Origin: Hydrogenophilales bacterium 28-61-23
GTDB taxonomy: Bacteria > Pseudomonadota > Gammaproteobacteria > Burkholderiales > Thiobacillaceae
Assembly (NCBI GenBank): GCA_002281555.1
Contig: NCGJ01000002.1
Span: forward strand, 372,001-436,000
Reading direction: 5' to 3'
DNA length: 64,000 bases
A program made the translations under genes and the position numbers. Shown here piece after piece: positions 34,240-56,861 of this stretch. Below the pieces are notes generated by a model that worked only from the letters and a program-made list of their open reading frames with translations, was not told where the DNA came from and did not search any database. The stretch's first letter is position 1. Each line of letters starts with the position of its first letter.

Positions 34240-37008
34240 ATGCATCTCCCTCGATATCACAGCCACAAAGCTATTGTCGTAGCGCTGGCCTTGACTCTGG
34301 CCGCGTGCGGCAAATCCCCGGAGGAACATTATCAACAGGCACAAGGACTAGAGCAGAAGGCCGACTACAAGGCCGCGGTTATCGAACTGAAGACCGTCCT
34401 GCAGAAACAACCCAACAATCGGGAAGCGCGTTTGCTGCTAGGCAGGGTTCTAGTTAAGAACGGAGCTTATGCGGAGGCCGAGAAAGAGCTGAGCAAGGCG
34501 CGCAGCTTGGGCGTTCCAGATGATCAGATCATCCCGGAATTGGCCAGGGTTTATGTCAGTCTGGGCGAACCCCAGAAAGCGCTGGATCTGGGCGTTCCAG
34601 CGACTGGCCTGAGCGCTCAGGCCCTCGCCAAGCTTCAAACCACACGGGCCGGGGCACAAATGACCCTCGGTAAACGGGCCGATGCGGAAAAATCCATAGT
34701 CGCGGCTATCCAAGCCGACCCCAAGCAACCCGAACTCCTGTTGATACGGGCAAAACTGGCTCTCATGGACAAGCAAAAGGACCAGGCCGGAAAGCTGATC
34801 GATGAGTCTCTCCAACAAGACCCCAAGTTTGTCGAGGCGCTCTACCTCAAGGCTGATCTGATTAAGTCGGAAAACAAGCCCGATGAGGCAATCAAGGTTT
34901 GCCAGCAGATTCTGACCATTGACCCATCCCAGTTCCGCGCCCATCTCGCAATTTCAAATTTGCTCTCGAGCAAGGGTGACATCGATGCTGCGGAAAAGGC
35001 CCTCCAGGCCGCCGAAAAATCCGCCGGTAATTCGCCCATGGTCAGATATGCCCGGGGCGTGTTTGAACTCCGGCGCGGCAAGCTCGACCAGGCCAGCAGC
35101 GCGCTGCTCGATGTGCTGCGTGTCATACCCGACCACTTGGCCACCGCCTTGGCTTATGCCATGGCGAGCTATGGTTTGGGAAACTACGAACAAAGCATCA
35201 AGTACACAAACAAGGTGCTCGCCGCGGAGCCGAACAACCTCATTGCCACCAAGATTCTCGCCGGCAACCTACTGAAAACAGGAGACGTCACGGGGGCGCT
35301 GAAAATAATTGATCCCTTGATGGCCAAGCACCCTGATGACGCCAGGGTACTGGCATTGGCCGGCGAGGCCCACCTCCAGACCAAGGATTACATCAAGGCC
35401 ATGGCCTACCTGGACAAGGCCGCCGAACTGGAGCCTGAGAACATCACGATCAAGACGCGTCGAGCGGCGGGGCACCTGGCCACGGGAGAAAACGACGAGG
35501 CCATGGCCGATCTGGAGCAAGCCGCCAGTCTTAGCGTCAAACCCGGCCAGGCGGATATGGCTCTGGTCATGCTGCGTTTGAAAGGCAAGCAATATGACAA
35601 GGCTCTCCAGGCCATTGCCAATCTAGAGAAGAAAATGCCCGACAATCCAGTCACCCACAACCTGCGCGCCGCCGCCCTGATGGGCAAACAGGATAGGGTC
35701 GGAGCACGCAAGGCCTTGGAACAGGCTATAGCTATCCAGCCCACTTTTTTCCCGGCTGTGACGAATCTGGCTCGCCTCGATATTCAGGAAAAGAAGTATG
35801 ACTCCGCGCGCAAGCGCTATGAGGAGGTTCTTGTAAAGGATAAAACCAACTTGGACGCCATGATGGCGTTGGCGGAAATGGCGGATGCCACCAAAAACGA
35901 CAAGGAAATGATCATGTGGCTGGAGAAGGCCGCGCAGTCAAATCCAGGCGCCATGCCTCCGCGGCTGATGCTGGTTCGCTACCATCTTGCCAAGAAAGAC
36001 CCCAGGAAGGCGCTGTCGTTGGCGAATGAAATGGTGAGTGCCAATCCAGGCCGCCTAGAAGCAATGGAAATGCTGGGCGCCGCACAATTGGCGAGCGGCG
36101 ATCAAGCCAATGCGATCTCAACCCTGGTCAAGGCCACGCAAATGGCCCCGCAATCGCCCGATGTCTTTTTCAGGCTCGGGCAGGTTCAACTGACCACACA
36201 ACACCAGGCAGATGCGCGCAAGAGCTTCGAAAAGGTGTTGTCCTTCAATGTGGAGCACCGCCAGGCGCTGGATACGCTCATTCAAATGGATTTGTCCGAC
36301 AAGAAACCCGACGCCGCGTTGAGCAGGGTGCGTCAGTTCCAGGCCAAATTCCCCAATTCACCTGTCGGCTACGATCGCGAAGGGGCCATCCTGATGTCCC
36401 AACGGCAGTACGCCCAATCGGTTAAGGCTTATGAGCAGGCCATCGCCCGTGGCGCGGACTCGGGAAGCGCGATCTCGCTGCATCGAGCCCTGGTCGCGGC
36501 GGGGGGTAACCAGGCTGCGGAGCTGAAGCTCTCAGCTTGGCTGAAAGCCCATCCCAAGGATATTGCCGTTCGTGCCTATGCCGCTGAATTCAGGATGATG
36601 GCTGGTCAGAATGCGGCCGCCATCGTCCTTTATGAAGATCTCCTGCGCCAGGCGCCGGAAAGCCCGGTCATGCTCAACAACTTGGCTGTGTTGTATCAGC
36701 GTGTGAAGGATAAACGCGCTCTAGCCACAGCGGAACAAGCCTATAAAAAGACCCCTGGACACCCGGCAACCCAGGATACCCTGGGCTGGATATTGCTTGA
36801 ACAGGGACAAGCGGCGCGCGCTGTCGAACTGCTGCGCAAGGCAATTGAAAAAGTCCCGAAGGCGGACAGTGTGCGTTACCACTATGCGGTGGCTTTGGCG
36901 CGCACCGGCAAACAACAACAGGCCAAAAATGAGCTTGATGCCCTGCTCAAAAGCAATCGTGCATTCCCCGAAATTGAAGAGGCCAAAGCCTTCTTCGCAA
37001 AAATGTGA
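34240..37008 (+). CDS. prsT: PEP-CTERM system TPR-repeat lipoprotein PrsT
   Basis: 922 residues; ATG 34240 has AGGTAAGGA upstream. Residues 1-22 are a lipoprotein signal with lipobox LAAC (Cys23). The rest is about 20 TPR-like units (EEHYQQAQGLEQKADYKAAV, REARLLLGRVLVKNGAYAEA, and later NNLAVLYQRVKDKRALATAE). This matches the PrsT family (TIGR02917), a large TPR lipoprotein found with exosortase A and its EPS genes. Its role is unknown; probably periplasmic scaffolding of EPS or protein export. Here it stands apart from any exosortase and is followed by two ABC permeases 100 bases on. +2 is Gly, allowing outer-membrane sorting. Confidence 0.92.
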   Translation: MHLPRYHSHKAIVVALALTLAACGKSPEEHYQQAQGLEQKADYKAAVIELKTVLQKQPNNREARLLLGRVLVKNGAYAEAEKELSKARSLGVPDDQIIPELARVYVSLGEPQKALDLGVPATGLSAQALAKLQTTRAGAQMTLGKRADAEKSIVAAIQADPKQPELLLIRAKLALMDKQKDQAGKLIDESLQQDPKFVEALYLKADLIKSENKPDEAIKVCQQILTIDPSQFRAHLAISNLLSSKGDIDAAEKALQAAEKSAGNSPMVRYARGVFELRRGKLDQASSALLDVLRVIPDHLATALAYAMASYGLGNYEQSIKYTNKVLAAEPNNLIATKILAGNLLKTGDVTGALKIIDPLMAKHPDDARVLALAGEAHLQTKDYIKAMAYLDKAAELEPENITIKTRRAAGHLATGENDEAMADLEQAASLSVKPGQADMALVMLRLKGKQYDKALQAIANLEKKMPDNPVTHNLRAAALMGKQDRVGARKALEQAIAIQPTFFPAVTNLARLDIQEKKYDSARKRYEEVLVKDKTNLDAMMALAEMADATKNDKEMIMWLEKAAQSNPGAMPPRLMLVRYHLAKKDPRKALSLANEMVSANPGRLEAMEMLGAAQLASGDQANAISTLVKATQMAPQSPDVFFRLGQVQLTTQHQADARKSFEKVLSFNVEHRQALDTLIQMDLSDKKPDAALSRVRQFQAKFPNSPVGYDREGAILMSQRQYAQSVKAYEQAIARGADSGSAISLHRALVAAGGNQAAELKLSAWLKAHPKDIAVRAYAAEFRMMAGQNAAAIVLYEDLLRQAPESPVMLNNLAVLYQRVKDKRALATAEQAYKKTPGHPATQDTLGWILLEQGQAARAVELLRKAIEKVPKADSVRYHYAVALARTGKQQQAKNELDALLKSNRAFPEIEEAKAFFAKM

Positions 37009-37110
37009 TCGGCCGGCTTATCCGACACGTGTAGCCGAAACATCAGTGCGAACGATTCATCCCTTGAGATTGGATCTATTGTGATGGGCACGGGCATTTT
37101 CACGGTGTAT

Positions 37111-38325
37111 ATGGTCGATCTTCGGCTCGCGCTACGTAACATCCTGCGACAACGCCGGCGCAGCGCCTTGGCTATCCTTGCGATTGGCTTCGGTGTCATC
37201 GCCATGATGCTTGCCGGCGGCTTTATCGAGTGGATTTTCTGGGCCGCAAGGGAGGGTACCGCGGTAACCCAGATCGGTCATATTCAGGTGGTCAAGCCAG
37301 GCTACTATGAGAATGGAAGGGCCGATCCTTTTGCCTATCTGTTGCCTCAACAAGCGCCCGCGCTCACTTCCCTGAAAAATACGCCCGGAGTCCGCTCGAT
37401 CACGCCTCGGCTGGATTTCAACGGACTCATAAGCCGCGGGGAGAACACGCTAACCTTCCTCGCGAAAGGGGTTGATCCCGTTGCGGATCCGGCGCTGCGT
37501 TACTTGATTATTCCTGATGGGCAGCGGCTTATGCCCGGCGATCCGGACGGCATCCTGATCGGTACTGGCTTGGCGACCAATCTGGGGGTCAAGGTGGGCG
37601 ACAAGGTTGTGCTCCTCTCAGGTACAAAAACAGGCGGCATCAACGCTGTCGAGGCAAGGATTCAGGGTCTGGCATCGACTTCCATGAAAGCCTATGACGA
37701 CTCCATGTTGTGGCTGCCCATAGCCATGGCGCGGCAATTGCTGCGTGTTTCCGGTGCCCATACCTGGGTTGTCTCCCTGCGGGATTCCAGCCTGACCGAG
37801 GCCGTGTTCGGCAAGTTGCAGACCGACCCCGCGCTAAAATCCTTTGAGATCACCCCTTGGACCAAACTAGCGGATTTCTACAATAAGACCGTCGAGTTGC
37901 TCACCCGACAGATCAATGTGGTCAAGCTGATCATCTCTACCATCATTCTACTCAGCATCAGCAACACCATGACTATGAGCGTCATGGAGCGGACAGTGGA
38001 GATCGGTACAGCCATGGCCTTGGGGGTTCGGCGAAGGCGCATCCTGGGCCTATTTCTGACCGAGGGCGCGCTACTGGGCGCCATTGGCGGGCTCTGCGGG
38101 GTGGCGATCGGATATCTCTTGGCCATGCTCATTTCCTATGTGGGTATTCCCATGCCGCCCTCGCCCGGCATGTCGCGGGGTTTCACCGCGGCCATCATCA
38201 TCACCCCCAGTATCGTCTGGCAGGCTCTGCTGCTTTCGGTGATGACCACCCTCATCGCCAGCGTCTACCCGGCCTGGCGGGCATCGAAACTGGTCATCGT
38301 CGACGCTTTGCGTCACAACCGCTGA
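37111..38325 (+). CDS. ABC transporter permease, LolC/E-MacB type (first)
   Basis: 404 residues from ATG 37111 (VDLRLALRNILRQRRRS is the usual family opening); ATG 37084 or GTG 37081 add about ten residues. One membrane helix near residues 20-42, a large periplasmic domain (45-260), then three helices (about 265-400) with SISNTMTMSVMERTVEIGTAMALGVRR, the FtsX-family signature that contacts the ATPase. LolCDE and MacB homologues extract or push lipids, lipoproteins or hydrophobic compounds away from the inner membrane. The partner permease follows 12 bases on; the likely ATPase is at 41086-41838 on the other strand. Confidence 0.88.
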   Translation: MVDLRLALRNILRQRRRSALAILAIGFGVIAMMLAGGFIEWIFWAAREGTAVTQIGHIQVVKPGYYENGRADPFAYLLPQQAPALTSLKNTPGVRSITPRLDFNGLISRGENTLTFLAKGVDPVADPALRYLIIPDGQRLMPGDPDGILIGTGLATNLGVKVGDKVVLLSGTKTGGINAVEARIQGLASTSMKAYDDSMLWLPIAMARQLLRVSGAHTWVVSLRDSSLTEAVFGKLQTDPALKSFEITPWTKLADFYNKTVELLTRQINVVKLIISTIILLSISNTMTMSVMERTVEIGTAMALGVRRRRILGLFLTEGALLGAIGGLCGVAIGYLLAMLISYVGIPMPPSPGMSRGFTAAIIITPSIVWQALLLSVMTTLIASVYPAWRASKLVIVDALRHNR

Positions 38326-38337
38326 GGAATACGGCAA

Positions 38338-39549
38338 ATGTGGAAGCTCGCCCTGCGCAATGTGTTTCGCCACAAGGGCCGCACGGCCATGACCCTGCTG
38401 GTCATCATCATTGGCGTGGTGGGGTTGATTTTGAGTGGCGGCTTCGTGCATGACATCTTCAAGCAGCTTGCGGAAGTGCTGATCCATTCGCAATCCGGTC
38501 ATCTGCAGGTCTCGCGCAACGGCTATTTTGCGAGCGGCACGCGTAGCCCGGAGAAATTTCTGATCGGCGACCCCGAACCGCTGCGAGCGGCGATCGCCGC
38601 CAAACCGGGTGTGCGGGATGTCATGGGTAGATTGTATTTCGCAGGCCTGCTCAACAATGGCCGCTCAGACCTGCCGATCCTTGGCGAAGGGGTCGAACCC
38701 GCGCGCGAGAGCAAGCTCGGCAGCAGTGTCGTCATCAAGCAGGGGCGCGCGCTCGAGGACAAGGACGCATACGGCATCATGATCGGTCATGGGCTGGCGC
38801 TTACCCTGAAACTCAAGCCCGGGGATTGGACGACGCTGGTGATCAACACGCCGGATGGCGCCCTCAACAGTCTGGAATTCCAGGTGGTCGGGGTGTTCCA
38901 GACCTTCTCCAAGGACTATGACGCGCGCGCCGTGCGCATCCCGCTGCCGGCGGCTCAGGAGCTTCTGGCCACACAGGGCGTCAATACCCTGGTGGTGTCA
39001 TTACAGCACACGCTGGATACCGGCCTGGTCGCGTCGGCGCTGGGCAAGCAGTTGGCCCCCGATGGACTGGAGGTGAAAACCTGGCTGGAACTCAATGAGT
39101 TCTATACACAGACAGTGGAAATGTACGACGCCCAGTTTGGGGTATTGCGCATCATCATTCTGCTCATGGTGCTGCTGAGTGTCGCCAATAGCGTCAACAT
39201 GAGCGTATTCGAGCGCGTCGGAGAATTTGGCACCATGATGGCTTTAGGCAATCGTGGTCGACGCATTTTTGCTTTGATCCTCATGGAGAACCTGATTATC
39301 GGTTTGATAGGTGCTTCGATAGGCGTTGCATTAGGCAGCCTGCTGGCCGTCGCGATTTCCGCCATCGGCATTCCGATGCCGCCACCGCCCAATTCCGATC
39401 TGCCCTACACCGCGCACATCCTGATCATCCCCTCGGTGATCGCGCTGGCTTTTGCGGTCGGGCTGATCGCCACGGTCGCTGCCTCGCTGCTACCGGCGCT
39501 GAGAGTACGGCGTATCCCTGTGGTGGATGCGCTGCGCCAGTCCATTTAG
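38338..39549 (+). CDS. ABC transporter permease, LolC/E-MacB type (second)
   Basis: 403 residues, same layout as the upstream permease but only moderately similar: helix 1 (TLLVIIIGVVGLILSGGF), periplasmic domain, and three C-terminal helices with SVANSVNMSVFERVGEFGTMMALGNRGRR. Two different FtsX-type permeases side by side indicate a heterodimer, as in LolCE. The gene ends 22 bases before the convergent barrel gene. The substrate is not shown by the sequence; the neighbouring LolA-like protein and barrel suggest an envelope-spanning lipid or lipoprotein route. Confidence 0.88.
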   Translation: MWKLALRNVFRHKGRTAMTLLVIIIGVVGLILSGGFVHDIFKQLAEVLIHSQSGHLQVSRNGYFASGTRSPEKFLIGDPEPLRAAIAAKPGVRDVMGRLYFAGLLNNGRSDLPILGEGVEPARESKLGSSVVIKQGRALEDKDAYGIMIGHGLALTLKLKPGDWTTLVINTPDGALNSLEFQVVGVFQTFSKDYDARAVRIPLPAAQELLATQGVNTLVVSLQHTLDTGLVASALGKQLAPDGLEVKTWLELNEFYTQTVEMYDAQFGVLRIIILLMVLLSVANSVNMSVFERVGEFGTMMALGNRGRRIFALILMENLIIGLIGASIGVALGSLLAVAISAIGIPMPPPPNSDLPYTAHILIIPSVIALAFAVGLIATVAASLLPALRVRRIPVVDALRQSI

Positions 39550-39571
39550 ACAACGGACGCCGAATCGGGCG

Positions 39572-41089
39572 TCAGAAGTCATGACGCAATTCCGCATAGA
39601 TTCGATCCCGGCCATTGAATTGGCCAAACAAACCTGTTGGCGGGCCATGAAACACATCCGCGCCCAGGCTGAGTTTCCAATTGGGCTGGAATGCCCAACC
39701 CAGCCTGGGCCGCAGTAGCCAATCTGTGCGGTTCAGGCTGCTGATCAACAAGGCTTCGGCCTCCCAGCCACGACCGAATTTGTGGTTGATCAACAGGGAG
39801 GCGCCATTTTCGTGCTGTTCCGGGATGATATGGGGATTGTGGTCAAGATAGATGCGCTGGAACAGCTGGGTATTGATCCGGGTATCGCTGGCCAGATTGA
39901 AATCAAAACCCAATACCCAGTCCACGGTGTCTTGAACGGCCACACCGTCCGGATCGGTGATATCGGTAACACTGTATTTGCGGCCGTCGGTATAAATGAC
40001 CTCGCCCTTGAGCACGAAGGGACCCATGTCCTTGGCCAGCGTCCCGCCTGTCTGCCAGATCCGGTCGTGGCGGGGGCGGTAGACAAAGGTCGGGCCGGCG
40101 ACGATATCCCGGTAGAAGGTGGCCATGGAATCCGTACTGCGGTAATAGAAGCCTGCCACATCCCAACCATTGATCAGCTTCGAAAAGCGTGCGCCGTAAT
40201 TGGTATTGTCCAGGCCGATGCCGGGCTTGGACTCGGAAGCGAAAGCAGCTGTCACGCCCGGCGGCGTTGGTGGATATGGATAGAACTCGGCACCGGGCTT
40301 GCCGATCCGGTCATAGCTAGGCAAGGGTATCCAGATCAGCTCGGCGTGGAAATCATCGCTGAAATATTCGGCCCGCGCCGCCCATTGGGGAATGCGCAGG
40401 GTTTGAAAGTCGGGCAGAACGAACTCGCGCAAATCCTTGGCCGAAACCACATCGGCGAAGAACAACCCAACCATCTCGCCCCACACCACATGTTGTCGGC
40501 CAACCCGCCAATCCAAAGCGCCGGTCGTGAAATCCAGATAGGTCTCGCGCAGTTCCAATTCGGCGCGCTGGTCATCGCGCACCGCCTTGGAGTAATAATC
40601 GGTCAGGTCGTAGACCAGGTTGTAATTTATACGTCCGCTTATCTTCCAGCGCATGCCCTGGGAAAAGCCGCCCGATTTGCCCAATTCCAGGCGCCCCATC
40701 ATCTTGGACCAGTGCTCTGGATCGGAGTAACTGTATGCCAGCTCCGTCTGCATGAAACCTCGCCAGGATGGTGGAGGGGCTTCCTCTTTAATTTTAAGGA
40801 GGGGCATGTCTGCGTCTGCCAGAAGCGCGTCCCTGGATCCCGCCAAATCATCCCGTTTGGCGACACCTGTTTCGGTCTCCTTGCCATCCTTTGGCTCCAG
40901 CGCGAAAAGATCGTCCTTCGATGCTGGCAAGCCGTCGTTCGCCTTCGATACGGGCTTGCCCGCGGATTCCTTGGCGGGTTCGATATCGAACAGGGCATCC
41001 TTGCTCACTGGTGCTTCGTCCGCCTTGACATCCTGAACAAGCCAGCTCCCGGCAAAACAGCAGATCGCAACCAATAATTTTGTATTCAT
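39572..41089 (-). CDS. Outer-membrane beta-barrel protein, DUF1302-like
   Basis: 505 residues. Signal peptide 1-23 (ends VKA), then an acidic/Lys linker with three copies of a short motif (SKDALFDIEP, SKDDLFALEP, SRDALLAD), then a barrel from about residue 105 ending in Phe (LRHDF), the outer-membrane insertion signal. LDWRVGRQHVVWGEMVGLFFAD and SAKDLREFVLPDF match DUF1302 proteins, which accompany lipid exporters of the RND/LolA type. It overlaps the ATPase gene (ATGA), so both are made together. Likely the outer-membrane end of the transport route; channel activity is not shown. Confidence 0.8.
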   Translation of the reverse strand: MNTKLLVAICCFAGSWLVQDVKADEAPVSKDALFDIEPAKESAGKPVSKANDGLPASKDDLFALEPKDGKETETGVAKRDDLAGSRDALLADADMPLLKIKEEAPPPSWRGFMQTELAYSYSDPEHWSKMMGRLELGKSGGFSQGMRWKISGRINYNLVYDLTDYYSKAVRDDQRAELELRETYLDFTTGALDWRVGRQHVVWGEMVGLFFADVVSAKDLREFVLPDFQTLRIPQWAARAEYFSDDFHAELIWIPLPSYDRIGKPGAEFYPYPPTPPGVTAAFASESKPGIGLDNTNYGARFSKLINGWDVAGFYYRSTDSMATFYRDIVAGPTFVYRPRHDRIWQTGGTLAKDMGPFVLKGEVIYTDGRKYSVTDITDPDGVAVQDTVDWVLGFDFNLASDTRINTQLFQRIYLDHNPHIIPEQHENGASLLINHKFGRGWEAEALLISSLNRTDWLLRPRLGWAFQPNWKLSLGADVFHGPPTGLFGQFNGRDRIYAELRHDF

Positions 41090-41838
41090 GCCGCCTCCCC
41101 TTGTGTTTTGACGGAACTGGACGGCGGCCTGACCGACTTCCAGTGATCGCTAACCTTCACCCCCAGCATGGCGACGCGCCCATCCTCAATGCGGATAAGG
41201 CGGTCGGCCATGGCCATCACGCGTCGGTCGTGGGTGGAGAAGATGAAGGTCGTGCCGTAATGACGGTTGATGTCCTTCATCAGCGCCAGAATGCTCGATC
41301 CGGTCTTGCTATCCAAGTTCGCGGTGGGCTCGTCGGCCAACACGATGCGCGGCTTGATCGCCAAGGCGCGGGCAATGGCCACGCGTTGGCGCTGGCCTCC
41401 GCTAAGCTGGTTGGGTTTGTTATCGGCGTATTTTTCCAGTCCCACCACGGACAGGAATTTGGCCACCCGCTTGCGCCGTTCTTCACGACTCACCTCGGGC
41501 AGATGCAGCAGGGGGTATTCCACGTTTTCGGAAGCTGTCAGCACAGGGAAAAGATTGAAGTTTTGAAAGATGAATCCGGTGGTGCGCGCGCGCAAATCGG
41601 CGAGGGTATCGGGTGAGCGCCCGGTGACCTCGACATCGTCTATGTACACCTTGCCTTGGGTCGGGTTATCGATGCAACCGATGATGTTGAGCAGTGTGGT
41701 CTTGCCGCTGCCGGAGGGGCCGGCGATGGCCAGGAACACGCCTTCTTCGAAAGAGAGTGTGATATCGTCCAACGCGGTAATCGTCTGTTCCCCAAGCTGG
41801 TACTTCTTGGTCACCCCTTCCACTCGCACCAAACTCAT
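41086..41838 (-). CDS. ABC transporter ATP-binding protein, LolD-like
   Basis: 250 residues from ATG 41838 (GGGAG 7 bases upstream). Walker A GPSGSGKTTLLN, Q-loop FIFQNFNLFPVLTA, signature LSGGQRQRVAIARALA, Walker B IVLADEPTANLDS and H-loop STHDRR are intact. The close match to LolD/MacB ATPases, and the absence of another ATPase, make it the motor for the two permeases at 37.1-39.5 kb. It is transcribed in the opposite direction, with the barrel gene downstream, and its start is only 36 bases from the divergent LolA-like gene. Confidence 0.93.
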   Translation of the reverse strand: MSLVRVEGVTKKYQLGEQTITALDDITLSFEEGVFLAIAGPSGSGKTTLLNIIGCIDNPTQGKVYIDDVEVTGRSPDTLADLRARTTGFIFQNFNLFPVLTASENVEYPLLHLPEVSREERRKRVAKFLSVVGLEKYADNKPNQLSGGQRQRVAIARALAIKPRIVLADEPTANLDSKTGSSILALMKDINRHYGTTFIFSTHDRRVMAMADRLIRIEDGRVAMLGVKVSDHWKSVRPPSSSVKTQGEAA

Positions 41839-41874
41839 GGGTGTTCTCCCGCAGCGCCGCAAATTGACAGAGAG

Positions 41875-42660
41875 ATGGCTAATATGTCCATGACGACTCT
41901 TCCTTTCATTCGCCGTGTATCCGCTTGTATTGTCTGCGCATTACTCGCCTGCGGCCCAGCCTGGGCAGGTACCTTGCAAGAAGATGATTCGCGTGCCCGG
42001 AACATCCTTGAGAAGGCCGATGAAATCCGCTTCCCGTCTGAGGGCTTCCAGGTGGATGTTAACATCGACAGCGCTACAGCCGATGGCAACGTGGAGAAAC
42101 GGAAATACCGGATCCTATCGAAAGGCAATGAAAGCACCGTTGTCATGGTGCTGGAGCCGGCTTCCGAGCGAGGCCAGATTATGCTCATGAAAGGCCGAGA
42201 TCTCTGGGTCTTCATGCCCAACGTCTCGCAACCGATTCGACTCGGTTTAGCTCAGCGGTTGACCGGTCAGGTTGCCAATGGCGATTTGGCGCGCGCCAAT
42301 TTCTCCGGCGACTACACCCCGCGCCTGCTGCGTAGCGAAACAATCAGTGGTCAAGAACACTATGTGCTGGAACTGCTGGCCATCGACCGAAGCGTAACCT
42401 ACCACCGGGTACTGCTCTGGGTGAACAAAGCCAACTACCGACCGCACAAGGCGGAGTTTTATTCCCTATCCAACCGCCTGATGAAAACCTGCAGCTACGA
42501 GGGCTACGAATCCATGGCTGGCCTGCGCCGCCCAACCAAGTTGGTCATGGAGGATGCACTAAGGGCCGGAGAGCACTCGGTGCTCGATTACCAGAGCATG
42601 AAATTACGCGACCTGCCGGACAAGATATTTACCAAGGACTATCTCAAGAAGCTGCAGTGA
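41875..42660 (+). CDS. Periplasmic LolA-like (outer membrane lipoprotein-sorting) protein
   Basis: 261 residues from ATG 41875 (alternatives 41884 and 41890 fit the same frame). A signal peptide ends ACGPAWA at about residue 32. The mature part matches the COG2834/LolA-like group: EKADEIRFPSEGF, a run of antiparallel strands, KGRDLWVFMPNVSQPIRLG and YHRVLLWVNKANYRPHKAEFY. Such proteins have a LolA-type hydrophobic cradle and occur with lipid exporters and DUF1302 barrels. It starts the plus-strand set LolA-like, glycosyltransferase, GMC oxidoreductase. Probably ferries a lipid or lipoprotein across the periplasm. Confidence 0.85.
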   Translation: MANMSMTTLPFIRRVSACIVCALLACGPAWAGTLQEDDSRARNILEKADEIRFPSEGFQVDVNIDSATADGNVEKRKYRILSKGNESTVVMVLEPASERGQIMLMKGRDLWVFMPNVSQPIRLGLAQRLTGQVANGDLARANFSGDYTPRLLRSETISGQEHYVLELLAIDRSVTYHRVLLWVNKANYRPHKAEFYSLSNRLMKTCSYEGYESMAGLRRPTKLVMEDALRAGEHSVLDYQSMKLRDLPDKIFTKDYLKKLQ

Positions 42661-42703
42661 CTGTCCGCCAGACCTCCCAAGCACAGGCCCTGTGGATGAG
42701 CGC

Positions 42704-43921
42704 ATGACCCCCCGTCCCACGATTCTTTTCATGGCCGATGCCGTCACTCTGGCCCACTTGGCGCGGCCGATAGCGCTTGCGCAAGGCCTGGATAAAACCA
42801 AATTCAATGTGGTCCTGGCCTGCGACCCGCGGCACCAGAAATTCCTCGATGGCCTGCCCTTCCCGATACGCGCCATCAAAACTCAGAGCAGTGATAAGTT
42901 TCTGCGCGCGGCGGCGCATGGCAGCCCTCTCTACGACACCCGGACTCTGCGCGACTATACGCGCGAGGATTTGTCCTTGTTGGAGGATATTCGGCCTGCG
43001 GCGGTCGTGGGCGACCACCGACTGTCCTTGGCGGTCAGTGCCAGGGTTGCCAAGGTTCCCTACCTGGGCATCACCAATGCCTACTGGAGTCCATACGCCG
43101 ATTCGTTCACACCCTTGCCGGAGTTGCCGATAAACCGGTGGTTGGGTATCAAGGCTGCACAATCCATATTCAACCTGGTCTGGCCGATGGCCGCCGCCTA
43201 CCATTCCTTGCCCCTGAATCGAGTGCGGCGCGACTATGGGCTGCCCGGTTTGGGCTGGGATTGGCGCCACCCCTATACGGACGCCGACCGCACCCTCTAT
43301 GCCGATGCCCGTGAACTGGTGCCGACTCGGGGGCTGCCCGCCACCCATGCCTATCTGGGATATATCGCATGGTCGCCCCCGGTTGACCTGCCGCCTTGGT
43401 GGCAAGAACTGCCCACAGACCGCCCTGTGATCTATGCCACCCTGGGCAGTTCAGGCCATCCCGGACTGCTCGATATGGTGTTGCAAGCCCTGGCCGACTT
43501 GCCCGTCACCGTGATTGCAACAACCGCGGGCAAGGCGACGCTGGGTACATTGCCAAGCAATGTGTATGTGATCGACTACGCGCCCGGTGACAAGCTGGCG
43601 GCGCGGGCCGACCTGATGATCTGCAACGGTGGCAGCCTGACCGTCTATCAGGCACTGGCGGCCGGGAAGCCTTTGATCGGGATTCCGGCGCACATGGATC
43701 AACATCTGAGCATGCATTACGTGGTAAAGGCGGGGGTTGGCGTACTAGTGCGCAGTGAACAAATGAACAGCCAAACGTTGCGCGCCGCAGTGCAACGGCT
43801 GCTGTCGGACGACGACGCGCGTGACCGGGCTCGGTCCCTGGCGCGATCGATTTCCGCTTACGCCCCCGCGCAACGTTTGAGCGAAATCCTGGAGGAAGTG
43901 ACCGCACATGTCGCGCGCTGA
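42704..43921 (+). CDS. GT1-family glycosyltransferase
   Basis: 405 residues from ATG 42704; GTG 42692 adds four. GT-B fold: N-terminal acceptor domain (FMADAVTLAHLARPIALAQG) and C-terminal nucleotide-sugar domain with YATLGSSGHP and the UGT-like signature CNGGSLTVYQALAAGKP followed by IPAHMDQHLSM. Enzymes of this group put sugars on lipids, carotenoids, macrolides or sterol-like acceptors. No signal peptide. It overlaps the GMC gene by 14 bases, so glycosylation and oxidation probably act on one product. Neither the sugar nor the acceptor can be told from the sequence. Confidence 0.88.
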   Translation: MTPRPTILFMADAVTLAHLARPIALAQGLDKTKFNVVLACDPRHQKFLDGLPFPIRAIKTQSSDKFLRAAAHGSPLYDTRTLRDYTREDLSLLEDIRPAAVVGDHRLSLAVSARVAKVPYLGITNAYWSPYADSFTPLPELPINRWLGIKAAQSIFNLVWPMAAAYHSLPLNRVRRDYGLPGLGWDWRHPYTDADRTLYADARELVPTRGLPATHAYLGYIAWSPPVDLPPWWQELPTDRPVIYATLGSSGHPGLLDMVLQALADLPVTVIATTAGKATLGTLPSNVYVIDYAPGDKLAARADLMICNGGSLTVYQALAAGKPLIGIPAHMDQHLSMHYVVKAGVGVLVRSEQMNSQTLRAAVQRLLSDDDARDRARSLARSISAYAPAQRLSEILEEVTAHVAR

Positions 43922-46052
43922 AGAAATCGCTCAACAACACTGGGATTATCTGGTTGTGGGCACCGGGGTGGGGGGCGCCACGCTGGGCCACGCTCTCGCC
44001 AAGAAGGGCAAGCGCGTGCTCTTTCTGGAGAAGGGGCGCGCGCCCTTCCGTCATGGCGACACCCTGCGGGGTGTCTATCCCGAGTTGAGCTTTCCCGCAT
44101 CCGCGGCCCCCTCCGCCCACCATGCTCCCCTCCTGGCTCGCTCCGGTCGCTATTACGAAGAAATACAGGATGGCCGACGCGCTTTCGTGCCCTTCATCGG
44201 CTGTGGCACCGGAGGCTCCAGCGCCCTCTATGGCATGGCCATGGAACGTTTCTTTCCCGCCGACTTCGAGCCGCGGAGGAGTTTTCCCGATGCGGCCGAC
44301 TCGACACTGCCGATTGCGTGGCCGATCGGATACCAGGATCTGGCGCCTTGGTATCAGCGGGCGGAGGAGTTGTACCGGGTGCGGGGTGGACGCGATCCAC
44401 TACGGCCTGATAGCCCGAATCTGTTGTCCCCGCCGCCGCTCAGCCCACGCAATGCCGAGTTGCATGCCCATTTCCAGCATCAGGGACTGCATCCCTACCA
44501 ACTCCCGCTGGCCTGCGAATCCGTCCCGGATTGCGAATCCTGCCAAGGCTACCTCTGCGCCCGCGATTGCAAGAACGACGCCGGCCGCATCTGCCTCGAA
44601 CCCGCCGTGCGCGAACATGGAGCCGCGCTGCTGGACGAATGCGAGGTGTTGGAACTGGAGGCGACGCCGGACCGGGTTACGGGGGTTGTCTGTCGCCACC
44701 AGGGGCGCACCCTTATCCTGCATGCCGATCAGGTCGTCCTTGCGGCCGGCGCCCTGAATACACCTGCTCTGCTGTTGCGCTCCAAGTCCAAGCACTGGCC
44801 GCTTGGATTGGCAAACTCTTCCGGATTGGTCGGTCGAAACCTGATGCGCCATGGCGTCGATCTCTACCTGGTTTTCACCCGCGCGGGTGGCGAAAATCGA
44901 TTCAAGGAGATCGGCCTGAGTGATTTCTACCACTCAGACGGCTCCAAGTTGGGCACCCTGCAATCCTTCGGCCTGCTACCGCCCGCGCCTGTCCTGGCCG
45001 CCAGCTTGGCCAAGGATTTGCACGACGCGGCGCCATGGGCGTCACCCTTGTTCGGGCTGGTGCGCCCCTTCGTGCGCGGCGTGCTGTCCCGTCTATTCAA
45101 GCGCGGTGTCCTGCTCGCCGCCATCATTGAAGACTTGCCTTATGCGGACAATCGGGTACTGCCAGGCCCCCCCCTTGGAATCGACTACCGCCTGCATCCC
45201 CATGACCTGGCCAGGATCCGCGCCTTCAGGCTTCGGGTTGCCAAGTCGCTCAAACCTTATCGATTTCTCGCCCTGCGCCAGGCGGAGAAAAATTCCATGC
45301 TGGCCCATGTCTGCGGTACCTGCCGCTTCGGCGAAGACCCGGCTACCAGCGTCCTCGACCCGTACAACCGCGCCCACGGCATCCACAACCTTTATGTGGT
45401 GGATAGCGCCTTCTTTCCATCCAGCGGCGGCACCAACCCGGCCCTGACCATCGCCGCCAACGCCCTGCGCGTGGCGGAACATCTGCTGATCCGCGAGGCC
45501 GAACCAGATGGAGGCACACCCAACATGCAAGCCCCCCCACCACCAGCCATGACCATGACCGAAACCACCTCGCGCATCCAGCGTCTCTCCCTCCTACGCA
45601 TGACTTTGCACACCGAGATCATCATCGATGCAAGTCCGAGACGCATCTGGGATGTGCTAACCGACTTTCCCGGCTACCAAGATTGGAATCAATCTATCCC
45701 CCATGCGGAAGGTGAAGCCAGGGCGGGAACCCTGCTCCGCGTGGTGATCGAATGGCCTGGCCTGAAATCGAGCCCTTACGAACTGGAAGTGTTGGACGCG
45801 CAGCCTGAGCGGGAATTACGCTGGCTGGGCCACTTTGGCAAAACCGGACTCATGGATGGGGATCACCGATTCGTGATCGAGCCGATTGGAAGCGAGCGCG
45901 CGAAGGTCATCCAGTCGGAACATTTCGCTGGCTGGCTGGTGCCCTTCTTCGCTCCCTGGCTGAGAAAGAACATCCTCAGCGGGTTTGAACAGATGAACGT
46001 TGCGCTAAAAAAGAAAGCGGAAAGCGCCGTCAGCGATCTGGGCACTTCATAG
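43908..46052 (+). CDS. GMC-family oxidoreductase fused to an SRPBCC domain
   Basis: 714 residues. The N-terminal FAD-binding loop is DYLVVGTGVGGATLGHALAK (13-32). A Cys-rich segment (CESCQGYLCARDCKNDAG, near 210) suggests a metal or disulfide site as in some bacterial GMC enzymes. H467 in AHVCGTCRFG and N510 in GGTNPALTIAAN fit the GMC active-site pair. GMC enzymes oxidise alcohols (cholesterol, choline, sugars). Residues about 530-560 are a Pro/Met-rich linker and 565-710 a SRPBCC (START-like) ligand-binding domain beginning IIIDASPRRIWDVLTDFPGY. The fusion is in frame without a stop. The SRPBCC pocket may present a hydrophobic substrate. No signal peptide. Confidence 0.88.
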   Translation: MSRAEEIAQQHWDYLVVGTGVGGATLGHALAKKGKRVLFLEKGRAPFRHGDTLRGVYPELSFPASAAPSAHHAPLLARSGRYYEEIQDGRRAFVPFIGCGTGGSSALYGMAMERFFPADFEPRRSFPDAADSTLPIAWPIGYQDLAPWYQRAEELYRVRGGRDPLRPDSPNLLSPPPLSPRNAELHAHFQHQGLHPYQLPLACESVPDCESCQGYLCARDCKNDAGRICLEPAVREHGAALLDECEVLELEATPDRVTGVVCRHQGRTLILHADQVVLAAGALNTPALLLRSKSKHWPLGLANSSGLVGRNLMRHGVDLYLVFTRAGGENRFKEIGLSDFYHSDGSKLGTLQSFGLLPPAPVLAASLAKDLHDAAPWASPLFGLVRPFVRGVLSRLFKRGVLLAAIIEDLPYADNRVLPGPPLGIDYRLHPHDLARIRAFRLRVAKSLKPYRFLALRQAEKNSMLAHVCGTCRFGEDPATSVLDPYNRAHGIHNLYVVDSAFFPSSGGTNPALTIAANALRVAEHLLIREAEPDGGTPNMQAPPPPAMTMTETTSRIQRLSLLRMTLHTEIIIDASPRRIWDVLTDFPGYQDWNQSIPHAEGEARAGTLLRVVIEWPGLKSSPYELEVLDAQPERELRWLGHFGKTGLMDGDHRFVIEPIGSERAKVIQSEHFAGWLVPFFAPWLRKNILSGFEQMNVALKKKAESAVSDLGTS

Positions 46053-46061
46053 CACGGATGA

Positions 46062-46730
46062 TCAGTCCGCCGCGCCTTTCAGCCGCATGGCGGGAACGCC
46101 ACCCCAGATCTCGCCGGCGGGCACTTCGGTGCCAGCCTTGAGTACCGATCCCGGTAGCACGACCGCGCTCGCGCCGATCTTCACCCCGGGCATCAAGATA
46201 CAACCCACCCCCACCGTGGCCCCTTTGCCCACGCGTACCTCGCGCAGGACAAAACGGTCCCCAGCCATGGCGTGAGCGGTGACGATGCAGCCCTCGCCGA
46301 GCACGCAGTTATCCTCCAGCACGGTCAGGCGGGGATCGAGGATCTTGCCCGCTACCGCCACCTGGCCGCCGACACGGGCGCCGAACAGGGCGTAGAAGGC
46401 CGGACGGGCAAACACAGGGAAGAACAGGGACATGGCCACCTTGCCCAGTTCGCTGACCACGTGCTGCACTTTCCAGAGGGTGAATTGGGGGTGGTCTGTG
46501 TCATAGTCACCTGGCCGCATAGGTTGCCAGATGGACAGCAATCCCAGGAATAGAGCGGTAAATCCGCCATAACCATAGGCAAACAAGAAAAACAGGGCGA
46601 TCGGTGCAAGGGAGGGGCCCAAGACGGAAACCAGCCAGCTCTGAAGCAAGAAAAGCAGGAGCAGCGTGGTGGCGAGTACCAGCCCGATCAGGGCGGCGGA
46701 GTACAGATAATCCTTGGCATCGGTCTTCAT
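46062..46730 (-). CDS. Membrane-linked left-handed beta-helix acyltransferase
   Basis: 222 residues. Two membrane helices lie at about 10-34 and 40-66, then a hexapeptide-repeat domain (about 115-215) with coils such as ILDPRLTVLEDNCVLGEGCIVTA and VGKGATVGVGCILMPGVKIGA. The last part, LKAGTEVPAGEIWGGVPAMRL, is the usual end of the acetyl/acyltransferase family. It is convergent with the GMC gene, 9 bases from its stop. It could acylate a sugar or lipid intermediate of the same pathway at the inner membrane. The transferred group is unknown. Confidence 0.82.
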   Translation of the reverse strand: MKTDAKDYLYSAALIGLVLATTLLLLFLLQSWLVSVLGPSLAPIALFFLFAYGYGGFTALFLGLLSIWQPMRPGDYDTDHPQFTLWKVQHVVSELGKVAMSLFFPVFARPAFYALFGARVGGQVAVAGKILDPRLTVLEDNCVLGEGCIVTAHAMAGDRFVLREVRVGKGATVGVGCILMPGVKIGASAVVLPGSVLKAGTEVPAGEIWGGVPAMRLKGAAD

Positions 46731-46810: not shown

Positions 46811-47722
46811 TTAGGCGGCGCGACGACGCTGGCTGAAGCCCAGACCAACCAAGCCCAGGCCCAGCAGAGCCAGAGTTGCCGGCTCGGGAACGGCCTTGGT
46901 CAAGTTGACGTTGGCATCGGCGCGGATGGTTTTACCCGCATCGGAGGCAACGGAAGTCCAGCCGTTGGCTGCGTCAAAGAAGTTGACGGTCTGGAAACCC
47001 GTGCCTTGGTTAACACCAAACTGCAGGGTGGTCGAGGAGGTATAACCGTTGGGCGCATCCGGCAGGAAACCGGCCGCATCGGCGACGTTCGCGGGATCGT
47101 CAACGCCAACTTTGGCGAAGCTCAGCGGGCCGTTGATTGTGGCATTGCCGCTAGCGGTGATGCCGTCGGTAACGAAGACGTTCGGCAGGGTGGCGCCGAT
47201 GCTGCCGTCGATGATCAGCATGCCGTCGGTGTAGCCCGTACCGGCCAGGATGCCAGCCGCGCTGTTGATGAAGGTGCCGCCCAAGCTGGCATCGTCATAA
47301 AACATGCTGACGCGGCCACCAGCCAGGGGCTGGAGAATAGCCATGCCAGGAACGGCGAAAGTAACGATTTCCTGGAACACGGCGGCCACGGTCAGCTGAT
47401 AGGTGCCGCTGGCATTCGAAGCCCAGTTCAGATTGGGGGATGCAACGCCGGTATTGAAGGCATTGACAACGCCTTGATAGTAGGTGGTGACGATGTCACC
47501 GGCAACGACGGTCGTGCCCGTGGGGCTGAGCTGGGTGCTGCCTTTGAAGAAGGCGGCTGAACCTTGGGAGTAGACATCAACGCCGTCGATGTTGAGTAGA
47601 ACGCCGTCATTGAAGATGCCGCCGTTGCTGGTATTGAAGTTGCCGGTCCACAGCGCGGCTTGAGCGCCACCGGAAACCAGACCAGCCAGGGCGAGAGCCA
47701 GAATAGTGAGATTGGATTTCAT
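46811..47722 (-). CDS. PEP-CTERM protein, flocculation-protein-like
   Basis: 303 residues; ATG 47722 with AAAGGAAT upstream. Signal peptide 1-22 (ends AQA). The passenger is Asn/Gly/Thr-rich with GSAAFFKGSTQLSPTG and TGTTVVAGDIVTTYYQGVV, reminiscent of the flocculation-associated PEP-CTERM protein of Zoogloea; I am unsure of that match. The tail VPEPATLALLGLGLVGLGF plus SQRRRAA differs from the tails in the 0-5.6 kb array (ATLALLGLG rather than TYALML). It has its own sigma54-type promoter and terminator, unlike the array genes. Expected to be exported, cut by an exosortase and placed in the matrix or on the surface. Confidence 0.88.
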   Translation of the reverse strand: MKSNLTILALALAGLVSGGAQAALWTGNFNTSNGGIFNDGVLLNIDGVDVYSQGSAAFFKGSTQLSPTGTTVVAGDIVTTYYQGVVNAFNTGVASPNLNWASNASGTYQLTVAAVFQEIVTFAVPGMAILQPLAGGRVSMFYDDASLGGTFINSAAGILAGTGYTDGMLIIDGSIGATLPNVFVTDGITASGNATINGPLSFAKVGVDDPANVADAAGFLPDAPNGYTSSTTLQFGVNQGTGFQTVNFFDAANGWTSVASDAGKTIRADANVNLTKAVPEPATLALLGLGLVGLGFSQRRRAA

Positions 47723-47787
47723 TTTGATTCCTTTCGTTTAATTGATAACTGTTTAACGCTCGCCCTGAAAGGCTTGCTCATCATAAA

Positions 47788-47802
47788 GCAATACCCATGC
47801 CA
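47788..47802 (-). promoter_or_regulatory. Sigma54 (-24/-12) promoter
   Basis: TGGCATG GGTA TTGC on the minus strand, followed by TT, matches TGGCACG-N4-TTGC at all but one base, with GG and GC exactly ten bases apart. It is 66 bases before the PEP-CTERM start. PEP-CTERM genes in related bacteria are driven by sigma54 and the activator PrsR. Confidence 0.8.
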
Positions 47803-48135: not shown

Positions 48136-49794
48136 CTACGCGTCGCGTGAACCGCTTATGCCATAACGGCCCGGCGCCAGAATGTTGTCCGGGTCGAGCG
48201 CGGCCTTGAAACGGTTGTTCAGGTCGAGCAACTCGGGCGACAACTCGAACACCCGCCCCCAACCGCCCAGTCCGCACCGGTACTGCTGATAACCCTGGGT
48301 CTGCATCACGGTGATGAGATCGTTGTAAAGCTGGTTGGCTCGCTCCACCTCCGCCGCGTCCTCCTTGTCGTAAATGATCGACATCAGACAGATGATCGAA
48401 CGCGGGTTCATCAGCAATTGGGCGATCCAGAAATCAAAGCCCTGCTCGACGAAACGTTCCCGGCAGGCGTCCAGAAATGGCAGCACATCTTCCTTGGTGA
48501 ACGGCAGGATGGGCGCGAACCAGATGAGGCCGACATGGTCGCGCGCCGGGTTGGCGTCCAGCTCGGGCCGGAGGCCGCGATAACGGTAATAGGCGTGTTT
48601 GACGAAGTGATGGCTGGGGATGCCCTGCAAAATGCCATGCACATGAGGCGCGGCCTCCATGACATGCAGGGTGGTGCCCAAGATGGCCTCGCTGGCACGC
48701 CTGAGCCAGGGCCAGCGCCGAGCCCAGCTCAGCAGGAGCTTCAGATAGCCGACACGGGCATCGGAGAGGAAGATGAGCTTGCCGTAGCGCCCCAGAGCCT
48801 TGCGCAACAGGGCGCGCTGTATCCTAACCTGTGCCCGGGTGCCATACACCCCGCCGGCGCAGCTCCATTCGGCAATGCGATATTTACGCCGCAAGTCGGC
48901 AAGATCCTCCTTGGTCAGGCTTCCTTTCTGAGTGACCTTTTCTTCGCTGCGCTGGGTGAGCAGAGTAAGGGTGACAAAGTCGTTGATCATATGCATCTTG
49001 GCGGTGATCACGCCCTTCAAGGCCAGGTCGAGGAAGGCGTCGAATACCTGGGGGACGTGGCGTTCATCATGCACTTCATAGACAAAGGAGTTGTAGGCCT
49101 CCGGCTCTGGCATGAGCCAGATACCGGCCTGCGTAACGATGCCCAGGTTGGACTGGGTGAACATGCCTTCCATATAGGGACCGATACCCCATTTGTGGGT
49201 GTGCCAGGTCTTCAGCCCTTGCAGGGCGCCGCCAGTTCGGATCCGCTCACCGGTCGGCAACACCACCTCCAGGCCGCAGAGATTGCCGAAATGGTCGCCG
49301 TAGGGCGTCTCGCCGATACCGCGGTCGAGGGCATTGCCGATGACGCTGCCGTTGGTCGGGCCATCGGTGCAGTCCATCCACAGTTTGTAGCCGTGCTCTT
49401 TCAAATAGGTGTTGAACTGCAGATAGGTGACGCCGGGCTCAATGACCGCATAGGCCAGCTTTTCGTTGACCTCCAGGATACGGTTCATCCGTGTGAGGAG
49501 CATGACCAGCGCGCCATGCTCGGGTGCCAGGGTGGCGCCATAACCTTGATTGATGCCGCCGCTGAATGGCCACAGAGGAATCTTGAACTGCCGCGCGATA
49601 TGGACGATCCGCGCCACTTCCTCGGCATTGTCCGGAAAGACCACGGCGGCGCAGAGGCTCTGCCAGGGAATCGTGCAGCGGGAGTAGCGCTCCAGTTCCG
49701 GTGCGGAGGTGAGGACATGCTCGGCGCCGATGGCGGCCCGAAGCTGATCGATCATGGCGTCGGGGAGCGTGTGGGTTTGTTCAGGCAAGGTCAT
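48136..49794 (-). CDS. FAD-linked oxidase of the vanillyl-alcohol oxidase / p-cresol dehydrogenase group
   Basis: 552 residues from ATG 49794, which has ACGGAGG 9 bases upstream; an in-frame extension to 49851 lacks a site. The N-terminal PCMH-type FAD domain has IPLWPFSGGINQGYGATLAP and YAVIEPGVTYLQFNTYLKEH; DGPTNGSVIGNALDRGIGETP binds the isoalloxazine. The C-terminal domain ends YRCGLGGWGRVFELSPELLD...FKAALDPDNILAPGRYG. The VAO group oxidises phenolic or other alcohol/amine substrates, in some members with covalent flavin. No signal peptide is seen. It follows the reductase/ligase genes after 171 bases, in which I see only short imperfect repeats. Confidence 0.88.
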   Translation of the reverse strand: MTLPEQTHTLPDAMIDQLRAAIGAEHVLTSAPELERYSRCTIPWQSLCAAVVFPDNAEEVARIVHIARQFKIPLWPFSGGINQGYGATLAPEHGALVMLLTRMNRILEVNEKLAYAVIEPGVTYLQFNTYLKEHGYKLWMDCTDGPTNGSVIGNALDRGIGETPYGDHFGNLCGLEVVLPTGERIRTGGALQGLKTWHTHKWGIGPYMEGMFTQSNLGIVTQAGIWLMPEPEAYNSFVYEVHDERHVPQVFDAFLDLALKGVITAKMHMINDFVTLTLLTQRSEEKVTQKGSLTKEDLADLRRKYRIAEWSCAGGVYGTRAQVRIQRALLRKALGRYGKLIFLSDARVGYLKLLLSWARRWPWLRRASEAILGTTLHVMEAAPHVHGILQGIPSHHFVKHAYYRYRGLRPELDANPARDHVGLIWFAPILPFTKEDVLPFLDACRERFVEQGFDFWIAQLLMNPRSIICLMSIIYDKEDAAEVERANQLYNDLITVMQTQGYQQYRCGLGGWGRVFELSPELLDLNNRFKAALDPDNILAPGRYGISGSRDA

Positions 49795-49965
49795 GACCAA
49801 CCTCCGTGGTTGTGATTCGATATATTTTGGCACCAACAACTCGCATGGCACTAACAGGCGCGGTGATATTGTGACGAGGCCCAGCCCGAGAAGCGCCGGA
49901 ATCCAGCTAGATCAAGACGCTGGATCACGGTTTCCGCCGTGGGGGGGCGAGAACGCGGTTTTTCT

Positions 49966-53965: not shown

Positions 53966-54153
53966 GTCGCTCCCGATAGCGGTATCCAGAATTTAACTGG
54001 GTGAAGAACTGGACATGCTTGCGGTTGAAGATGTCGAGATCGGCAACGTTCAATTTTCCGACGCCTAGCCGGGCGAGTGTGAGCAGGCTGGCTTGTCCTT
54101 GCTTGACCCAAGCCGATGTTGCCGGAAAAGGCAGTTTGGTAATTGAAGTCCAT
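53966..54153 (-). pseudogene. Decayed ThiF/MoeB-family adenylyltransferase remnant
   Basis: The minus-strand frame starting at ATG 54153 gives MDFNYQTAFSGNIG, the usual N-terminus of HesA/MoeB/ThiF proteins in this family. The frame then shifts by one base and continues WVKQGQ, SLLTLARLGVGKLNVADLDIF, NRK. The last segment is the typical helix and strand after the ThiF GxGGxG loop, which itself is missing. So there is a frameshift, an internal loss of the nucleotide loop and loss of the C-terminal two thirds. The remnant starts 5 bases after the FeeM-like gene stop, as expected for a coupled gene. No functional product is likely. Confidence 0.6.
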
Positions 54154-54857: not shown

Positions 54858-55076
54858 GCCAACGTTTTGCAGTCGTGGCGGCGGCTCGACTACGGCAATG
54901 GTTCTTGCCCAAGTACGACTACCTCGACGCAGTCTTTCCATGATTCCCACTGTTACACCCTCACACTCTCAGGCTCTTTGAGCTCATAAAATGAATCTGC
55001 AAATTGACGCTCTTGGTAGTCGGTTTGACCGTATTGAAGCCCAGAGTTTACGGCACAGTCCTTTACAATCAACCCC

Positions 55077-55841: not shown

Positions 55842-56861
<1,020 letters not shown>

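Follow-up and report, generated by a model that had tools for sequence, protein, structure and literature searches.

A conserved Lol-like gene set with a DUF1302 barrel alongside exosortase XrtA: a candidate lipid export route

What would a bacterium that already encodes LolCE do with a second Lol-like gene set, and why should this set come with an outer-membrane barrel of its own? The question is raised by a stretch of 64,000 nucleotides (contig NCGJ01000002.1, positions 372,001 to 436,000; hereafter the window) from the 3.5 Mb genome of Hydrogenophilales bacterium 28-61-23, in which two LolC/E-like permeases, a LolD-like ATPase, a LolA-like periplasmic carrier and a DUF1302 barrel are encoded together. 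The reading favoured here, held with about even confidence, is that these five genes specify a route dedicated to exporting lipid across the envelope, as part of the XrtA exosortase/exopolysaccharide surface system and with a cargo derived from an N-acyl amino acid synthase (NAS).

A five-gene unit separate from the essential Lol system

The two permeases, encoded in succession on the positive strand (37081..38325 and 38338..39549), each carry the PF02687 and PF12704 domains and are of the FtsX/MacB type, with 39% identity to each other and LolC/E as their nearest relatives in NCBIfam and the PDB (LolE for permease 1, E 5e-19). The negative strand encodes the barrel (39572..41089; PF06980, 45.1 bits, cut-off 23.2) and the ATPase (41086..41838; PF00005, 117.7 bits), which are followed on the positive strand by the carrier (41884..42660; PF17131, 167.6 bits, cut-off 30), whose likely start at 41884 gives a signal-peptide-like beginning, the listed open reading frame (ORF) opening upstream at 41656. 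Ahead of these genes lies that of PrsT, the TPR lipoprotein of the XrtA/PEP-CTERM system (34240..37008, positive strand; TIGR02917, 810.6 bits, cut-off 312.2). A preliminary description of positions 34240 to 46730, made from the sequence alone, had named these six products and pointed out that they offer parts for every layer of the envelope; profile matches recovered all six, with the permeases and ATPase identified for the inner membrane, the carrier for the periplasm and the barrel for the outer membrane.

The same description took the set to be a second, cluster-bound one with its own barrel rather than the essential Lol system, and this is borne out. Against the lolCE model TIGR02212 (cut-off 362.45) the cluster permeases reach 110.3 and 86.8 bits, far below the cut-off, and a genome-wide search with this model returns LolCE at 535.3 bits on contig C25, with the cluster permeases at 109.2 and 85.2 bits; the pair is therefore not the sole LolCE of the genome, and the cluster set is not the essential Lol system. 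The likeness to LolCDE-LolA lies in the two different FtsX/MacB-type permeases, the LolD-like ATPase and the LolA-superfamily carrier. The set differs in that its permeases and ATPase (213.3 bits to the LolD-type model TIGR02211, cut-off 307.75) fall under the curated cut-offs, its carrier belongs to PF17131, it contains a DUF1302 barrel and no LolB match, and it coexists with a true LolCE. Scanning 20 window ORFs (two of which are spurious) against Pfam gave no match to a LolB model, a search that did not extend to the rest of the genome.

Distribution was followed in an order sample of 150 genomes, in which the barrel is sharply split: of 35 genomes with a match at E <= 1e-3, 16, drawn from 10 families, have one at E <= 1e-130 (barrel-positive), and the other 19 are weak, the best at 2.3e-34. 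Orthologues of permease 2 (E <= 1e-130) occur in exactly the same 16 genomes, with 7.1e-79 as the best value elsewhere, and the carrier is present in 15 of the 16, the copy in G092 being a fragment at a contig end; it was not found in the remaining barrel-positive genome, G126, which is 78% complete. Because the profiles of barrel, permease 2 and carrier match across these genomes, the two permeases, ATPase, carrier and barrel form one unit beyond chance. A carrier also occurs in G005, a genome with no barrel or permease 2 match, where it adjoins NAS on contig C53; this pair is perhaps a remnant, or the product of an incomplete assembly.

Gene neighbourhoods were compared in 103 loci, namely 15 from the order sample, 80 from a named scan (the best 80 of 297 relatives), seven from a class sample and the window itself (as a 22.9 kb slice), weaker barrel matches being excluded. 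Gene presence, called with purpose-built hidden Markov models and self-set score limits, is 99 for the ATPase (97 when its limit is raised from 150 to 300 bits), 95 for the carrier and 74 for each permease. Contig ends shorten many of these loci, and among the 75 of at least 17 kb (long loci) all five core genes are found in 56, four in 5, three in 13 and two in 1. At least three genomes are duplicated, with identical or equally placed barrels (L047/L080, L048/L123 and L049/L113), and recounting without these pairs leaves 54 complete sets in 72 long loci. Since the barrel was used to choose the loci, these counts are conditional on it, the reverse test being given by the carrier and permease 2 profiles above. 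Gene order varies among loci.

In the class sample, a strong barrel (E <= 1e-110) is present in nine genomes, or eight without the genome of the window. Six of the seven strong loci (L180-L183, L185 and L186) hold all five genes; in L184 permease 1 stands at the locus edge and permease 2 was not seen, and in a further strong-barrel genome, G348, the barrel match alone was seen. Among the named-scan matches listed, the closest barrels come from Thiobacillus, Sulfuriferula and other Betaproteobacteria. Three weak-barrel genomes had none of the other window genes in stretches of 9-20 kb (L062-L064), and a permease of the cluster kind is absent from the 13 intermediate-barrel loci of the class sample (L187-L199).

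Exosortase, NAS and tailoring genes around the unit

The exosortase system was described in 2006, including the XrtA/PEP-CTERM system with PrsK, PrsR and PrsT (Haft 2006, PMC1569441), and PrsT and PEP-CTERM proteins are found in or near the locus examined here; the main text of that paper does not use the terms 'ABC transporter' and 'permease'. The genome of the window encodes XrtA on contig C29 (333.3 bits, cut-off 208). In the order sample, every one of the 16 barrel-positive genomes has XrtA over the cut-off, versus 24 of the other 134 (p 4.6e-11), and so do all nine strong-barrel genomes of the class sample (8/8 versus 42/265 with the genome of the window left out, p 7.8e-7); class-sample genomes with intermediate barrels have a mixed XrtA status. 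The five-gene set is thus found only alongside XrtA in the two samples, often near NAS genes. Permease 1, permease 2 and the gene for XrtA exopolysaccharide export are consecutive on one strand in 19 of 95 loci. The preliminary description had joined the transporter to PrsT, which holds for the window; across the 103 loci PrsT is a neighbour in only 26, and the link to XrtA is the firmer one.

Genes for PEP-CTERM proteins share this neighbourhood. By a home-made C-terminal motif rule, 64 of the 103 loci contain a PEP-CTERM-like ORF (68 ORFs), versus one of 16 control loci. Of the 65 ORFs taken into a family scan, from which two very short and one very long were left out, 58 match the THxN model and 55 the floc-PepA model (E <= 1e-5), partly by way of the common C-terminus. 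The representative in the window is a PepA-like PEP-CTERM surface protein (46811..47722, negative strand; PF07589, 33.4 bits, cut-off 20.7), which scores 78.6 bits against NF033554, just below the cut-off of 80.

A tie between NAS genes and the PEP-CTERM/exosortase system has been credited to Craig 2011 by later papers, and the co-occurrence of NAS and exosortase is confirmed in the order sample. With NAS called by a TIGR03694 match over cut-off, or by a FeeM domain above a self-set limit of 80 bits, NAS is present in all 16 barrel-positive genomes and in 23 of the other 134. Twelve barrel-positive genomes have a TIGR03694 NAS, and in 7 of them it lies no more than 10 kb from the barrel; of the 39 loci with both NAS and carrier, 19 have the two within 1 kb of each other. 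The NAS of the window (54159..54950, negative strand) is of the FeeM type (PF21926, 161.1 bits, cut-off 27; PDB 2g0b FeeM, E 7.4e-12) and is not a TIGR03694 match. Elsewhere, carrier and TIGR03694-type NAS adjoin on the same strand in an operon-like arrangement (L126, L127, L133-L136, L139 and L143, which include Nitrosospira and Accumulibacter loci). The literature searched, which covered few subscription journals, yielded no paper on the route considered here and none describing how the NAS product is exported.

Many loci also carry putative tailoring genes of one of two kinds, either ThiF/nitroreductase or an alternative, defined here as a VAO-type oxidase or a ligase/reductase/amidotransferase. 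These are mutually exclusive: among the 75 long loci, 40 have ThiF, 16 an alternative, none both and 19 neither (p 4.7e-7), with corresponding counts of 38, 16, 0 and 18 among the 72 without duplicates. Parsimony places at least 11 switches between the two kinds on a barrel tree, a figure that belongs to an uncertain tree, quickly built with no mixture model and giving weak support to 22 of its 70 inner branches. Both kinds would activate and reduce a carboxylate. Alignment to the NCBIfam model PRK14852 (989 positions), in which the window NAS covers 22-215, the ThiF of a neighbour 314-779 and a nitroreductase-like neighbour 619-795, suggests that NAS, ThiF and nitroreductase may also exist as one fused protein.

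The window is of the alternative type, with four candidate tailoring genes on the negative strand. These encode a VAO/4-cresol-dehydrogenase-type flavoprotein (48136..49851; PDB 8s7s, E 1.6e-85; p-cresol methylhydroxylase 1dii, E 1.7e-75), a thioester-reductase-like protein (49966..51099; PF07993; TIGR01746, 141.1 bits, under the cut-off of 213.35; MxaA 4u7w, E 6e-24), a FadD-like acyl-AMP ligase (51096..52877; PF00501, 215.6 bits; NF038343, 272.5 bits, under the cut-off of 950) and an N-acetyl sugar amidotransferase-like protein (52877..53962; TIGR03573, 95.3 bits, under the cut-off of 203.2; 8wex, E 1.6e-7). Between the last of these and NAS lies the fossil of a ThiF/HesA-type gene (54024..54098, negative strand), 25 residues with 64% identity to the ThiF of L106 that score 37.7 bits, versus a maximum of 26.6 in 200 shuffles; PRK08223 also matches it, at 22 bits. 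ThiF adjoins NAS at the position of the fossil in L074, L076 and L080, and the genome of the window encodes no ThiF of this type over the cut-off (best 89.9 bits versus 266). The fossil beside NAS, together with the alternative genes, suggests that the tailoring step was exchanged in this lineage with the transporter kept.

The pump may be exchangeable as well. Four genomes with weak barrels and a NAS near the barrel (G050, G095, G135 and G049) supplied loci L145-L148, and three of these (L146 in G095, L147 in G135 and L148 in G049) combine NAS and ThiF with a PF17131 carrier, a diverged DUF1302-like barrel (46 to 56 bits to the purpose-built barrel model) together with an MMPL/RND pump. Neither permease of the cluster pair was found in these 20 kb stretches, and XrtA is over the cut-off in G095 and G049; L145 is a possible further case by profile match. 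No MMPL match occurs among the 20 window ORFs scanned. These loci suggest that ABC pair and RND pump are interchangeable partners for carriers and barrels of the same kinds, and the swap of the pump with carrier and barrel kinds retained points to a small lipid-like cargo rather than lipoproteins. Six other loci (L149-L152, L154 and L156) have NAS near ThiF and no match to a core model, RND pumps not having been looked for there.

The candidate route and its rivals

In the favoured export route, NAS would couple a fatty acyl chain with an amino acid, and the variable tailoring module (ThiF/nitroreductase, a VAO-type phenol oxidase, or ligase plus thioester reductase) would alter the head of the resulting lipid, helped in the window by a GT1-type glycosyltransferase, a GMC oxidoreductase and an acyltransferase. 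The permease pair and ATPase would extract the product from the inner membrane, as LolCDE does lipoproteins, the LolA-like carrier would receive it and deliver it to the DUF1302 barrel, and the barrel would deposit it within the outer membrane or on its surface, next to the PEP-CTERM surface protein.

A profile of 51 homologues of the carrier matches 3buu at E 4.4e-125, and the carrier model superposes on 3buu_A (NE2245 of Nitrosomonas europaea) with a TM-score of 0.93 by target length, a root-mean-square deviation (rmsd) of 1.7 and 68% identity; 3BUU is the orthologue of the window carrier. N. europaea is PEP-CTERM positive in Haft 2006 (PMC1569441). 3BUU has been listed among solved structures with mostly unknown function (PMC6394551), and 'NE2245' is not mentioned in the literature searched, few subscription journals being covered; under the favoured reading this structure gains a system and a candidate cargo. 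The next structures, 9tp6 (LolA3 of Porphyromonas gingivalis), 3bk5 and 4z48, follow at TM 0.76-0.80, and true LolA at about 0.5. By E-value LolA3 comes second to 3BUU (TM 0.76 by target length), with 3bk5 (0.80) and 4z48 (0.79) as near, but it has 20% identity to the window carrier and its description mentions no linked transporter (PMC13103446); it is reported to interact weakly with the LolB of that species (PMC13103446).

Several results weigh against the favoured reading. Within XrtA-positive genomes of the order sample, NAS is present in all 16 barrel-positive ones and in 19 of the 24 others, a difference that is not significant (p 0.07); the presence of NAS may thus go with XrtA and not with the transporter, and the argument for NAS is carried by physical neighbourhood. 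These 19 genomes have XrtA and NAS and no barrel. By the purpose-built models, NAS lies inside only 34 of the 75 long loci (36 counting a third NAS group), and the window NAS stands about 11 kb from the carrier, has lost its ThiF partner and is accompanied by a second NAS on contig C7. The unit itself is divided in G111, where the contig that holds barrel and carrier is not that of the permease pair, which lies about 18 kb away from XrtA, and one of the three genomes with an RND pump, G135 (L147), has no XrtA match. The p-values given for the order sample overstate independence because its 16 barrel-positive genomes share 10 families. Finally, the AlphaFold2 model of the barrel, confident past residue 102 and of low confidence for the N-terminal 100 or so residues, resembles OprD-type porins and AlgE, both of which have hydrophilic cargo: OprD/Occ porins are nearest among the matches listed (2y2x, OpdK; Z 23.1, rmsd 3.1 over 298 residues), and AlgE (4b61) aligns at Z 21.7, rmsd 4.8 over 325 residues.

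A second Lol system for sorting lipoproteins, with a small number of clients from the exosortase system (PrsT, for example), would agree with the nearness of the permeases to LolE/LolC among solved structures, with the LolA-superfamily fold of the carrier and with the presence of PrsT in 26 of the 103 loci. It is nevertheless unlikely, since the genome has its own LolCE, no LolB model is matched by the cluster proteins scanned, the NAS/ThiF cassette is paired elsewhere with an RND pump, and PrsT was not found in the other 77 loci, many of them cut by contig ends.

Likewise unlikely is that the exported cargo consists of PEP-CTERM proteins, processed by XrtA and linked to a lipid of the NAS pathway. 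All strong-barrel genomes, 16 in the order and nine in the class sample, are XrtA-positive, and the PEP-CTERM-like ORFs in 64 loci, with their THxN and floc-PepA matches partly owed to the common C-terminus, would fit such a cargo. However, a strong barrel is missing from many XrtA-positive genomes (24 of 40 in the order sample, 42 of 51 in the class sample), so the route is not needed for exosortase work in general. Moreover, RND pumps of the kind found in place of the ABC pair are not known to export proteins.

A related proposal, itself rather unlikely, makes the NAS-derived lipid the membrane anchor of XrtA-attached PEP-CTERM proteins, with the Lol-like route carrying the lipid or the lipid-joined protein to the surface. 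If true, this would supply both the missing anchor and the missing export step of the Gram-negative exosortase pathway, and the tailoring slot would vary the anchor between species.

A hydrophobe tolerance or efflux system is suggested by AmeABCD of Castellaniella defragrans, in which AmeA is a DUF1302 outer-membrane protein and AmeB a periplasmic protein of the DUF1329/LolA superfamily (PMC6394551). The window barrel is also of DUF1302, and the carriers of the RND-type loci match PF17131 and, weakly, DUF1329. AmeABCD differs in that AmeD is an HAE3 RND pump, AmeC a further periplasmic protein and the substrates monoterpenes (PMC6394551), whereas the window set has an ABC pair in place of the RND pump and an exosortase context. 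Its ties to XrtA, NAS and PEP-CTERM genes make efflux improbable.

The preliminary description had proposed the export of a glycosylated, oxidised lipid-like product, a reading that rests on the GT1 and GMC genes. The accessory genes it placed between the transport genes are all present, but they come after the carrier: the GT1-type glycosyltransferase (42692..43921, positive strand; PF06722 and PF00201), the GMC oxidoreductase fused to an SRPBCC domain (43908..46052, positive strand; PF00732, PF05199 and PF10604) and a hexapeptide-repeat acyltransferase with a hydrophobic N-terminus (46062..46730, negative strand; PF00132). The GT1 and GMC genes adjoin the carrier in the window, and GT1, hexapeptide and GMC genes recur jointly in L075 and L133. 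Co-occurrence elsewhere, which the preliminary description expected of the whole set, holds for the core genes, as described above, and is uncommon for GT1 (16 of 103 loci) and GMC (4 of 103, a count that may be low because the GMC model was built from one sequence). Such rarity marks these genes as accessories making local decorations, so the proposed lipid does not stand as the general product and is at best a local variant; that the route is specific for it is quite improbable. Inward uptake of hydrophobic compounds, for which a Thalassolituus MMPL and LolA-like protein and the porin-like product of the next gene, described as increasing on long-chain alkane, might speak, is very improbable, as LolCDE-type transporters are known as exporters and the neighbouring genes look biosynthetic.

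Neighbouring genes and related loci

The gene run is larger than the 34240-46730 first outlined, extending from the PEP-CTERM protein gene through NAS to position 54950. The next long recognisable gene is hemB (55842-56855, named by eye), which also adjoins NAS in related loci. An ether-lipid reading of the right-hand genes, with the FAD_binding_4 protein as an alkyl-dihydroxyacetone phosphate synthase, was ruled out: this protein matches the VAO/4-cresol-dehydrogenase type at E 1e-62 to 1e-85 versus E 1e-9 or weaker for alkyl-dihydroxyacetone phosphate synthase.

A sigma-54-like site with one mismatch (47787..47802, negative strand; motif match) lies 65 bp upstream of the PEP-CTERM protein gene, in agreement with the sigma-54 motif reported upstream of PEP-CTERM genes by Haft 2006 (PMC1569441). 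It is the sole well-placed site, and sigma-54 control of the transport genes is unsupported; the window holds 29 sigma-54-like matches versus 40.9 expected from shuffles, that is, no enrichment.

Additional Lol-like genes were observed outside the unit. In the genome of the window, contig C19 (110000-121922; L204) encodes a further LolC-like permease, scoring 171.9 bits to lolCE, beside a LolD-like ATPase, and in these 11.9 kb no carrier or barrel matched the purpose-built models. A second tier of carriers (E 1e-50 to 1e-38) adjoins a LolC-like permease (E 1e-79 to 1e-49) in eight order-sample genomes (G058:C3, G115:C7, G023:C31, G077:C3, G129:C27, G037:C14, G024:C14 and G029:C17), and these pairs probably represent another Lol-like system.

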